A stretch of 64,000 nucleotides of DNA from contig NZ_WESC01000018.1 of NCBI RefSeq assembly GCF_009184905.1, positions 1 through 64,000 on the forward strand, in the 5' to 3' direction. Positions 49,536 to 51,995 of this stretch are shown here, piece by piece (within the stretch, counting starts at the first letter, position 1; each line of letters begins with the position of its first letter). The DNA comes from Parvibaculum sedimenti. GTDB lineage: Bacteria > Pseudomonadota > Alphaproteobacteria > Parvibaculales > Parvibaculaceae. A model generated the notes under the pieces. The model saw nothing but the letters and a program-made list of their open reading frames with translations, ran no database searches and was not told where the DNA came from. Position numbers and translations under genes: made by a program.

Positions 49536-50045
49536 TCAATGCAGGCGCGGCATGGCGTGCGGGAAGGGCAACTCGCCCATGCGCGTCATGCCGAAGCGGA
49601 GGCCGGTGGCGTTGAACGCTATCGCAAGACGTTGCGCGGCGGCCCAGAGGCTTTTCGCGTCGCGAGACGCCCATGCCGGATCGCAGGCGGCGAGCGGCGT
49701 GCCGTCGCGTGTCTGCATGGCGGCGAGGAACATGAGGATGCGCGCCTCATCGCTCGTCAGGACGCGCCATTTCGGGCAGGGGATGGAAAGCGGCCGCCCG
49801 GTCGCCTGCGTCAATGCGTCGGTAAGATCCGCCACCAGTCCGGCGCCCTCCGGCATGTCGAGAGCATCGAAGGCGCCCTGCAGCACCAGGGAGCGCTGTT
49901 TGCCGGTGCCAATATGGGTCCATTGCACACGCAGAGCCCAGGTCGCGAACTGCTCGGCAAAGCCGAGTTCCGCAACGGGCTGATCGGCAAAATAGGCGTG
50001 GCGGGTGGCGGGATTGGGAAAGAAGGCGCGGTCGGCTTGTTTCAT
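49536..50045 (-). CDS. Conserved-looking protein of unknown function, possibly iron-regulated
   Basis: A 169-residue soluble protein of no family I recognise. Visible features: an N-terminal DRAFFPNPATRHAYFADQPVAELG, a middle with CPKWRVLTSDEARILMFLAAMQ and a C-terminal PFPHAMPRLH with two histidines. One Cys and several His and Met could suggest a metal, but this is guesswork. ATG 50045 has GGAGATCACCG just upstream; a longer frame lacks a site. A Fur-like box lies about 37-60 nt upstream on the same strand, hinting at iron control. It ends 3 nt from the nitronate monooxygenase stop. Confidence 0.75.
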   Translation of the reverse strand: MKQADRAFFPNPATRHAYFADQPVAELGFAEQFATWALRVQWTHIGTGKQRSLVLQGAFDALDMPEGAGLVADLTDALTQATGRPLSIPCPKWRVLTSDEARILMFLAAMQTRDGTPLAACDPAWASRDAKSLWAAAQRLAIAFNATGLRFGMTRMGELPFPHAMPRLH

Positions 50046-50081
50046 CGGTGATCTCCGCTGCTGGGGCGACGAGCGAAGAAT

Positions 50082-50106
50082 ATCGCAAATGAGAATTAGT
50101 CGCAAT
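50082..50106 (-). promoter_or_regulatory. Candidate Fur-type iron box
   Basis: On the minus strand the region reads TGCGACTAATTCTCATTTG, close to the Fur box pattern of AT-rich ATTCTCATT half-sites with a TGCGA/TGC frame. It sits 37-61 nt upstream of the start of the 49536 gene. Irr and RirA often replace Fur in this group, so the controlling protein is uncertain. Confidence 0.35.
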
Positions 50107-50200
50107 AGTAACGGGGGTGGGCGACCGACGCGGCCTGTCGTTCGTGATGGGCGGAAATGTGAATTTTGCACGTCTAAGCGGCAGTTTTCCTAGGTTTTCA

Positions 50201-50229
50201 TTGACACGCTGCACTGCGTCAATTACATC
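50201..50229 (+). promoter_or_regulatory. Candidate promoter for speDE
   Basis: TTGACA at 50201-50206 and TACATC at 50224-50229 are separated by 17 nt. The -35 is a perfect consensus, the -10 is weak, as often in alphaproteobacteria. The spacer contains a loose dyad (GAC..TGCA..GTC). Transcription would start near 50236, giving a leader of about 345 nt before speD. Confidence 0.4.
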
Positions 50230-50357
50230 AGCGCTCGAAACGCAATCGCACGTGCCCCTGGCCAGACTGGTTACGTAACGGCGTACGCGTCTCTTTTGGA
50301 AAGTTTGGCGGCCTGCCGCATCAGGCAAAACCCGCTGGGTTTCGAGGGAGAATGCAT

Positions 50358-50384
50358 ATGCCGGATTATAGTCTGAGGGGCTAA
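50358..50384 (+). CDS. Putative leader peptide (8 codons) upstream of speD
   Basis: ATG at 50358 encodes MPDYSLRG followed by TAA. GAGGGAG at 50344-50350 gives an ideal 7-nt spacing; an in-frame ATG 6 nt earlier is too close to that site. The TAA codon forms most of the four-base loop of a GGGGC/GCCCC hairpin, so a ribosome ending there would melt it. That is the kind of arrangement used by leader peptides that control the next gene. No homologue can be checked here. Confidence 0.35.
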   Translation: MPDYSLRG

Positions 50385-50465
50385 CGCCCCGGATTAAAGT
50401 CGAGCCGTCCTGCGAAGCTGGACAGGCCGGGCGAGACCGCCCCGCACTCGGCAAAAACCTAGCGA

Positions 50466-50492
50466 AGCGTTTCTTCAAGAAAGCTTTTGTTT
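50466..50492 (+). terminator. Attenuator-like hairpin in the speDE leader
   Basis: AGC-(G)-TTTC pairs with GAAA-GCT around TTCAA, followed by TTTGTTT. It is a short, weak stem, so it could only end transcription conditionally. It lies about 90 nt before the speD start. Confidence 0.4.
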
Positions 50493-50580
50493 CATGGGCC
50501 CCGGCGCATCCCGGAAGGGATATTCCGTTGTTGCGGAGCGCGTCCGGCAAGCCCGGTCATCTACTGGTTGGAGAGTGGCT

Positions 50581-51111
50581 ATGTCCGAGCCCCGCGCCCT
50601 CTTCCAATTGGGGATCGACTTGAATCGCGATTCAAGGAAGACCCAGGCGGAAGTTCTCGAGTTCCCTCATCACGCTGCCGATCTCGCCAATGTCGAGACG
50701 CTGTCCGAAGGACCGCGCCCGCATGCCGAAGAGCGGAAGGATTTCTTCATTGAGCGCGATGGCGTCCGTTTCGCCGGCACGCATCTCATCATCGACCTGA
50801 TCGGCGCGAGCCGTCTGGACGATCTCGCCCATATCGAGGAGACGCTGGTCCGCTGCGTCGAAGTATCGAAGGCAACGCTTCTGCACATCCATCTCCACCA
50901 CTTTACGCCCAATGGCGGCGTGTCGGGCGTGGCGGTGCTGTCGGAAAGCCATATCTCGATTCACACCTGGCCCGAGGCGGATTATGCTGCTCTCGACGTC
51001 TTCATGTGCGGCGAGGCTGAGCCGCAGAATTCGATCGCGGTGCTGCAGGAAGCCTTCGGGCCTTCCAATATCCGCGTCGAAGAACTGCGTCGCGGGCAGG
51101 GCATGGTCTGA
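50581..51111 (+). CDS. speD: S-adenosylmethionine decarboxylase proenzyme
   Basis: Decarboxylates SAM to give the aminopropyl donor for spermidine. The proenzyme cuts itself between Glu122 and Ser123 in LSESHISIHTWPE to form the pyruvoyl group; His128 and Cys143 (in FMCGEA) match the processing and catalytic residues of the short bacterial type. The 176 residues include about 55 extra at the N-terminus compared with the usual 120-130, mostly polar and probably flexible. GGAGAG precedes ATG 50581. The stop overlaps the speE start by one base (TGATGA). Control is probably through the long leader at 50236. Confidence 0.95.
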   Translation: MSEPRALFQLGIDLNRDSRKTQAEVLEFPHHAADLANVETLSEGPRPHAEERKDFFIERDGVRFAGTHLIIDLIGASRLDDLAHIEETLVRCVEVSKATLLHIHLHHFTPNGGVSGVAVLSESHISIHTWPEADYAALDVFMCGEAEPQNSIAVLQEAFGPSNIRVEELRRGQGMV

Positions 51112-51995
51112 TGACCGACGGAAAGAACGGTCCGCGCTGGGTGACGGAGACCCTCCATGAAGAGGGAGGGCTTCGCACCTCCTATCGCGCGGACCGCGTT
51201 CTTTTCGAAGAAGGGACCGAACACCAGCATCTCGTCATTTTCGACAATCCGACCTTTGGCCGGATGATGACGCTGGACGGCGCTACGCAGGTGACCGAGC
51301 GCGACGAGTTCGTCTATCACGAGATGATGACCCATGTGCCCGTGCTGGCGCATGGCAATGTGAAGAAGCTGCTCATCATCGGCGGCGGCGATGGCGGCAT
51401 CCTGCGCGAGGCCGCGCGGCACAAGGGCATCGAGAAGATCACCATGGTCGAAATCGACCCGGCGGTGACCGATTTCTCGAAGTCCCACCTGCCGATGATT
51501 TCGGCGGGCGCCTTCGGCGATCCGCGCCTCGAACTCGTTTTCGCCGACGGCTCCAAATTCGTCGAGGGCGAGGGCGAGACCTACGATGTCATCATCGTCG
51601 ACTCAACCGATCCCGTCGGTCCCGGTGCGGTGCTTTTCGAGGAAAGCTTCTATCGCAACGCCAGGGGCCGTCTCACCGAAGGCGGCATCATGGTGACGCA
51701 GAACGGCGTGCCGTTCCTGCAACCTGCGGAACTTGCGAGCACCATTTCGAAGTTCCACCGTCTCTTCAAGGTCTGCAGCTGCTACCTGGCGACGATCCCC
51801 ACCTATGTCGGCGGACCGATGGCCATGGGTATCGGCACGGATGACGAATTCGCCAAGGCCGTGACGGTCGAAGCGCTGGAACATCGTTTCGCGGCGGCGG
51901 GCTTCAAGACGCGTTATTACACGCCCGAAGTTCACAAGGCCGCCTTCGCGCTTCCCGCCTATGTGCGGGAGATCGTCGACGCCGCGCGGCGTTGA
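51111..51995 (+). CDS. speE: Spermidine synthase
   Basis: Transfers the aminopropyl group from decarboxylated SAM to putrescine, making spermidine in the cytoplasm. The 294-residue protein has the N-terminal beta domain with HQHLVIFDNPTFGRMMTLDG, the SAM-binding LIIGGGDGGILREAARH, the acidic EIDPAVTDFSK and the gatekeeper stretch DSTDPVGPGAVLF. All residues of the usual active site are visible. It is translated together with speD through a one-base overlap. No ornithine or arginine decarboxylase is present in the window, so putrescine comes from elsewhere. Confidence 0.96.
   Translation: MTDGKNGPRWVTETLHEEGGLRTSYRADRVLFEEGTEHQHLVIFDNPTFGRMMTLDGATQVTERDEFVYHEMMTHVPVLAHGNVKKLLIIGGGDGGILREAARHKGIEKITMVEIDPAVTDFSKSHLPMISAGAFGDPRLELVFADGSKFVEGEGETYDVIIVDSTDPVGPGAVLFEESFYRNARGRLTEGGIMVTQNGVPFLQPAELASTISKFHRLFKVCSCYLATIPTYVGGPMAMGIGTDDEFAKAVTVEALEHRFAAAGFKTRYYTPEVHKAAFALPAYVREIVDAARR

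Follow-up and report, generated by a model that had tools for sequence, protein, structure and literature searches.

By what means bacteria sense spermidine has been asked for a long time, and few answers at the level of RNA are firm. The speD–speE locus of Parvibaculum sedimenti, situated in the 64 000 nt stretch of DNA analysed here (the window), raises this question in a particular form, as a long leader precedes speD. A preliminary description, made from the sequence of the window, had proposed that this leader, which contains a tiny ORF, sets the expression of both genes through ribosome stalling at the ORF or through binding of a ligand by the RNA. Which part of the RNA could exert such control, and does it belong to a known system? 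The genes and the putative promoter are located as follows.

50201–50229, + strand: promoter-like pair, TTGACA (50201–50206) and TACATC (50224–50229), 17 nt apart (putative)
50581–51111, + strand: speD, S-adenosylmethionine (SAM) decarboxylase (PF02675, E 2e-35)
51111–51995, + strand: speE, spermidine synthase (PF01564, E 4e-56)

A 169-aa ORF on the minus strand (49539–50045), divergent from speD, has no Pfam match. For the leader, 51 loci of the window's family were examined, many of which represent one genome taken twice. A single script detected both the 5′ block and the ORF hairpin (see below) in 41 of the 51; two are truncated contigs, and eight (four lineages, each present twice) could not be anchored because the script seeks the start-site core, so their four leaders were read separately. 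Removal of identical copies left 25 distinct leaders (alignment A5). TTGACA was found in all 25 of these; a consensus scan of the leader listed no promoter, and the promoter call therefore rests on the occurrence of this hexamer in every leader. From this, the transcript is inferred to start at approximately 50235–50240, which gives a leader of about 344 nt up to the speD ATG at 50581. The long leader reported in the preliminary description is confirmed; it is conserved and lacks any Rfam match, and the position of the conserved promoter-like hexamer, far upstream of 50560, argues against a transcript start close to the latter position. None of the refuting outcomes named in that description was observed. 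The weak terminator-like hairpin also reported did not hold up. A scan for intrinsic terminators found no terminator-like sites in the leader, where 0.8 would be expected in shuffled sequences, and intrinsic transcription attenuation of speD was rejected on these grounds. Two reported palindromes, GTTACGTAAC (50270–50279) and GCGTACGC (50281–50288), are both present by eye; the former is not kept in relatives.

In leaders from outside the family, the upstream parts differ, whereas the stretch over the speD start is near-identical in most. This stretch corresponds to a predicted two-state RNA element, which begins inside the interval of the preliminary description (50201–50580) and extends beyond it.

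50558–50654, + strand: element spanning speD from its ribosome site through the start codon to about codon 24 (covariance model R1, 92.3 bits, E 1e-19)
50558–50575, + strand: 5′ strand of state A, CATCTACTGGTTGGAGAG, which includes the speD ribosome site (helix A counts)
50598–50616, + strand: 3′ strand of state A, CCTCTTCCAATTGGGGATC, speD codons 6–12 (helix A counts; frozen synonymous codons)
50600–50612, + strand: 5′ strand of state B, TCTTCC-AA-TTGGG, overlapping the 3′ strand of state A (helix B counts)
50619–50636, + strand: upper hairpin of state B, CTTGA:TCAAG (93.5% of cells paired); an 18-nt perfect palindrome in the window
50642–50654, + strand: 3′ strand of state B, CCCAG-GC-GGAAGT (helix B counts)

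The order shared by these loci is CAUCUACUGGUUGGGGAG, a variable linker carrying the start codon, GCCCUCUUCCAAUUGGGGAUGGACUUG, a variable loop and CAAGCA..CCCAA.CGGAAG. In state A, CAUCUACUGGUUGG(G/A)GAG pairs with CCUCUUCCAAUUGGGGAU in codons 6–12, and the start codon lies in the loop. The pairings of state B are UCUUCC:GGAAG(A/U), UUGGG:CCCA(A/G) and CUUGA:UCAAG. Helix A, which buries the ribosome site, and helix B overlap at 50600–50612 and are mutually exclusive; each is supported by covariation. The internal loops of state B are conserved only in part, so that no obvious ligand pocket is visible. An initial guess of two end-to-end hairpins was replaced; folds of single sequences give one long hairpin running from CAUCU to GAUG.

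Covariation was assessed in an alignment (A3/A4) of 62 rows, hand-chosen for matching R1 (E below 4e-4). As R1 includes helix A and the upper hairpin, the counts for both are biased in favour of the model. R1 does not contain the lower helices of state B. Nine of 71 sources were dropped: L117, L120, L121, L122 and L150, which are copies of kept rows, L111, a close Kiloniella relative of kept rows, and L078, L012 and L020, which gave no match at E 0.01. The R1-matching L133 and many near-identical loci were never in the alignment, and five opposite-strand R1 matches (L026, L028, L034, L047 and L111), attributable to the palindromic make-up of the element, were left out.

Across the 62 rows, 90.6% of the 1101 cells of helix A are paired, compared with at most 60.3% in controls slid by 1–3 columns, and both sides change at nine of its 18 pairs. 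Helix A exceeds shuffled alignments on all measures, the observed value being reached in at most three of 500 shuffles. For helix set B the corresponding values are 84.8% of 974 cells, at most 55.0% in slid controls and changes on both sides at 10 of 16 pairs, including four of the five pairs of the upper hairpin; this set exceeds shuffles on four of five measures. Further pair types in helix B were not above shuffles (246 of 500, and 265 of 500 in the unfitted alignment). In an alignment fitted to no structure, 88.3% of cells are paired in helix A (slid controls at most 61.8%) and 83.5% in helix B (at most 57.5%). The base-pair covariation that the preliminary description had suggested looking for is therefore present in both helices at the speD start.

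In addition, strands were permuted between species in the 32 lowest-scoring rows (2000 permutations). On average, own strands paired more stably than permuted strands, both in helix A (−13.39 versus −12.42 kcal/mol, p 0.008) and in helix B (−8.69 versus −7.84 kcal/mol, p 0.007); taken one comparison at a time, the own pair equalled or exceeded the permuted one in only 63%. Of the 62 5′ strands, 49 pair with z below −2 relative to shuffled strands. By eye, some lineages change letters yet keep both states, for example L132/L135 and L140. Taken together, the comparison supports the presence of two competing helices, their overlap and their tie to speD.

The predicted energies of the two states are close, with a median difference of 2.9 kcal/mol favouring B and a middle half from −4.9 to +6.4. 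State A lies within 5 kcal/mol of the best fold in only 27 of the 62 rows and state B in 39. The window's own copy of the element is not more stable than its shuffles (z +0.63), as a balanced pair of folds would allow, though this gives no support by itself. A run of wobble pairs in state A is kept, with U-G in 58 of 62 rows followed by G-U in 53 and 41, respectively. The 5′ letters of this run are unused in state B and are free to become Watson–Crick. Runs of G-U wobbles are possible polycation sites, and the run in state A may offer such a site or may tune the balance between the states.

The coding half of the element carries a further signal. Codons were tabulated for 61 speD genes from the 62 rows (L153 gave no gene). 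Within the element, one glycine is encoded by GGG in 59 of the 61, and other residues are similarly frozen to CAA (48 of 49), GAC (45 of 46), AGC (40 of 41), GAA (42 of 44) and TTG (41 of 46). GGG is found in 3–11 of the 40–61 genes at other well-conserved speD glycines, and codon usage is mixed in other columns. Not all codons of the element are frozen, as an alanine is GCC in 27 of 41 and a second glutamine CAA in 28 of 43. GGG, CAA and TTG are uncommon in the long ORFs of the window, at 12% of Gly, 19% of Gln and 7% of Leu codons, unlike AGC and GAA. The frozen synonymous codons argue for selection at the RNA level in addition to some at that of the peptide; the protein itself may account for part of the coding conservation (LG[MI]D).

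The distribution of the element follows speD. Model R1, built from 28 sequences, matches 41 of 385 alphaproteobacterial genomes (class search, E up to 0.1), representing 25 families, and each of the 41 is one of the 157 that carry a SAM decarboxylase gene. speD follows the element in all 30 fetched loci and in 10 of 11 further loci; the eleventh is at a contig end. R1 gives a single match below E 1 in the window's own genome, at the speD start. A refined model, R2, gives a weak second match in that genome (L263, contig C1, 279507–279599, minus strand, E 0.04). No R1 match was found in 116 of the 157 speD genomes, and R2 adds three genomes at E below 0.001 among 83 R1-negative speD genomes inspected, so the element is common and far from universal. 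In a wider sample of the phylum, R1 matches 18 of 398 genomes, 17 of them in the same class, and no convincing element was found outside the alphaproteobacteria in this sample. The sole match outside the class (G722, E 0.056) was taken as chance, as there is no speD in the 1.0 kb inspected, and likewise a weak match within it (G698, E 0.013; no speD in 1.7 kb). Locus inspection covered the phylum matches other than G629, G700 and G742.

Several loci show related or unusual arrangements. In six loci missed by R1 (L109, L155, L167, L178, L214 and L223), the first speD codons contain a different frozen-looking stretch, CTGAAGCGGAGGCGGTnnRCGCCCGAGCAGAGGT, which is able to form a hairpin of its own. 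L225 is intermediate, with an R2 match and a similar stretch. This suggests, on sequence grounds, that the stretch is a diverged form of the start-site element. L257 (1501–2043) carries a full element (R1 91.5 bits) before a putative SpeD-like protein that is strongly diverged, sharing 26% identity with the SpeD of the window over 164 aa. In L184, L191, L201 and L232 a CATCTAYTGG-like stretch is seen by eye near the ribosome site, without a convincing model match.

These comparisons make it likely that the start-site element acts in cis on the speD mRNA as a switch of translation. In state A, the 5′ strand would pair with codons 6–12, burying the ribosome site and turning speD off; in state B, the same coding strand would pair with later codons, leaving the ribosome site free and speD on. 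State A is fully transcribed before state B and would form first; B would follow more slowly and, on average, be the slightly stabler of the two. The balance may be shifted by a pathway product, with spermidine as the first candidate and SAM or decarboxylated SAM as the next. Feedback would need the product to favour A, or its scarcity to favour B, and SAM decarboxylase would then be made only when needed. By analogy, the element would work like a translational riboswitch, a candidate with a hypothetical ligand. More tentatively, it could represent a new riboswitch class, widespread in alphaproteobacteria, in which the speD mRNA senses spermidine (or SAM or decarboxylated SAM) directly by means of a competing helix supplied by the first 24 or so codons of the gene itself. 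The wobbles would then be polycation-sensitive, and in one family, that of the window, an ORF switch would be stacked in series, placing two RNA gates on spermidine synthesis.

The upstream part of the leader in this family comprises the following features.

50240–50300, + strand: near-invariant 5′ block of the transcript, ACGCAATCGCACGTGCC ... GTAACGGCGTACGCGTCTC (invariant columns, 25 rows)
50280–50296, + strand: strand complementary to the ribosome site and start of the leader ORF, 50344–50362 (RNAalifold)
50344–50362, + strand: ribosome site and start region of the leader ORF, GAGGGAGAATGCATATGCC (GGAGA and ATG in 25 of 25 rows)
50358–50384, + strand: 8-codon ORF, MPDYSLRG-stop (M-x5-R-G-stop, gapless, in 25 of 25 distinct leaders)
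50377–50390, + strand: hairpin GGGGC-TAAC-GCCCC with the ORF stop in its loop (five stem pairs, invariant, 25 of 25 rows)

The 5′ block, with the consensus ACGCAATCGCACGTGCC ... GTAACGRCGTACGCGTCTC, is nearly invariant across the 25 leaders and has one significant copy in the window's own genome. Within the block, the strand GGCGUACGCGUCUCUUU can base-pair over the start region of the ORF, including its start codon and ribosome site, each pair being possible in 21–25 of the 25 rows (RNAalifold). A local alternative within the block (ACGC:GCGU, CGC:GCG and CGU:ACG) is predicted for the window's block alone and for that of L011, with one pair lost in six of the 25 rows (GRCG); in the model, this hairpin would compete with the pairing to the ORF ribosome site. 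As the letters of the block and of the ORF site hardly vary, covariation cannot test either fold. The window's fold from 50238 to 50385 is unusually stable (z −3.8). Extra stability as a family trait was rejected, since the median z for the family leaders is −0.8, with five of 25 below −2. A pattern for the 5′ block, allowing two mismatches, matches 164 of the 385 class genomes, a count made uninformative by a reversed control that also matches.

The 8-codon ORF with its ribosome site, and the stop codon in a hairpin loop, were both noted in the preliminary description and can be read directly. The ORF (ATG CCG GAT TAT AGT CTG AGG GGC TAA) starts at 50358, 7 nt downstream of the end of GGGAG; an in-frame ATG at 50352, only 1 nt past GGGAG, is a poorer start. 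The stop (TAA, 50382–50384) lies in the loop between GGGGC (50377–50381) and GCCCC (50386–50390). All 25 distinct leaders keep an ORF of exactly eight codons with its ribosome site, as well as the stem; the stop is TAA in nine and TGA in 16. The peptides range from MPDYSLRG to MSGSSLRG, MAGSRPRG and MLYLNGRG. The leader is conserved beyond chance, in that the 25 sequences run ungapped through the ORF and codons 2–6 differ without a stop or frameshift. The amino acids that these codons specify vary (pN/pS 0.67, from 12 distinct sequences), and the Arg-Gly codons, though invariant, double as the 5′ arm of the hairpin, so that the conservation lends no separate support to peptide-dependent stalling. 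Of the control proposed in the preliminary description, a conserved short ORF and an RNA component are supported, while sensing through the peptide is not.

By sequence, the ORF-containing leader is an extra module 5′ of the start-site element in the window's family. Its 5′ block would pair with the ribosome site of the ORF, which ends in the hairpin, and translation of the eight codons probably remodels the leader, in which case being translated would count for more than the peptide made. Four lineages of the family (L005, L012, L020 and L025) keep the 5′ block, ORF and hairpin with an eroded start-site core; an R1 match persists in L005 (48 bits) and is lost in L012 and L020, and L025 is known by pattern only. 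The two modules thus look separable. A different arrangement is seen in the Hyphomicrobiaceae-type leaders (L033, L036, L037, L040, L041, L043, L044, L046, L048, L050, L058, L061, L064, L076 and L257), which have their own near-invariant 5′ module, TCCGTTCGTCCACCTGCCC ... CCCCAAAGGTAAGGAGCGGACGGG, upstream of the element. In the prediction, this module closes a long helix immediately 5′ of the start-site element, and no ORF is seen in it by eye.

Other explanations of the locus can be weighed against this evidence. A ribosome stalled at Arg-Gly-stop in response to polyamine or arginine supply could alter the downstream structure or protect the transcript from Rho, and such leader-peptide control could coexist with the start-site switch. 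The constancy of ORF length, start, Arg-Gly and stop in all 25 distinct leaders fits this explanation, as do the position of the stop codon in a hairpin loop, the choice of AGG (6% of Arg codons in long ORFs of the window) and the bacterial precedents of speFL (ornithine) and mdtU (spermidine) (PMC7815308). However, codons 2–6 vary, and the hairpin arm itself takes in the constant Arg-Gly codons; the loop U-R-A-N might have been retained for its tetraloop fold, and no intrinsic terminator was found in the leader. Among 110 loci scanned, moreover, the hairpin pattern is restricted to the window's family, so that a leader peptide cannot be the general mechanism. We regard this explanation as possible and on the whole doubtful.

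Similarly, the choice between states A and B could be made by a trans-acting RNA or an RNA-binding protein, including SpeD itself acting autogenously, in place of a small molecule. The 5′ strand CAUCUACUGGUUGGGGAG is highly conserved as sequence, and the strict tie to speD is what autogenous control would give, but much of the sequence constancy is explained by the two competing pairings, in which letters change in concert; we consider a trans-acting factor rather unlikely, although conceivable. It is very improbable that there is no switch at all and that the pairing is a by-product of a conserved N-terminal peptide (LFQLGMDL...SS..Q.E) and a ribosome site. The residues L-G-M-D do recur even in divergent members, but several codons are fixed at the third position, in some cases to a codon that is uncommon in the window, and changes in the untranslated 5′ strand go together with changes in the coding strand while the linker between them is free. 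A translational switch at the speD start is the preferred reading.

This switch would be a precisely defined and deeply conserved candidate for RNA control of speD, present in at least 25 families. Half of the element is coding sequence held by frozen synonymous codons, which suggests why screens of intergenic regions would miss it, and overlapping constraint at gene starts may serve as a general search principle for hidden switches. The element is uncatalogued. The window searched against Rfam at gathering thresholds yielded one tRNA only; the region 50050–50650 at E up to 10 yielded one chance match to a human lncRNA; and a search of five loci, up to E 1, yielded one chance match that lay outside the element. 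Neither the speF family (RF00518) nor the SAM families, both raised in the preliminary description, match the leader or the element. No report of the start-site element was found among the matches listed in a search of the open-access literature, a scope that leaves out most subscription papers.

Comparison with known systems places the element beside several RNA controls of polyamine genes. The spermidine riboswitch is described as a variant of SAM-I that acts by transcription termination (Salvail et al., 2023, PMC10853860). Like the speD element, it is a cis-acting RNA on polyamine synthesis genes, including speD, and its off-switch logic would be expected for the speD element too. Unlike it, the speD element has no SAM-family match and no intrinsic terminator, and it spans the start codon and coding sequence. 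The speF element (RF00518) is also found in alphaproteobacteria, ahead of a polyamine gene and in a long leader, with conservation from near the transcription start; it concerns another gene and its model lies upstream of that gene, and its authors saw no binding of ornithine, putrescine, spermidine or other compounds (Corbino et al., 2005, PMC1273637). The covariance model of the speF element gave no match at speD, even at E up to 10.

A short ORF ahead of the gene for the same enzyme is known from mammals, where the MAGDIS leader peptide of AMD1 (SAM decarboxylase) causes peptide-dependent stalling. The speD ORF is unrelated in sequence, and for it such stalling is not supported. The gene oppA has an initiation-region hairpin, which is not known to have a competing coding-region helix or deep covariation. 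This hairpin resembles the speD element in that the ribosome site and start codon lie in a structure that spermidine may alter (PMC7815308). The same work describes speFL and mdtU of E. coli, which respond at upstream ORFs to ornithine and spermidine, respectively, and which share with the window's leader an upstream ORF before a polyamine gene (PMC7815308). A further parallel is that a region in mdtU is predicted to base-pair with the ribosome site of the gene that follows. At 34 codons, and with its C-terminal portion conserved, mdtU differs from the speD leader ORF, which has eight codons and a barely conserved peptide. Unlike both, speD would carry its RNA switch at the gene's own start.
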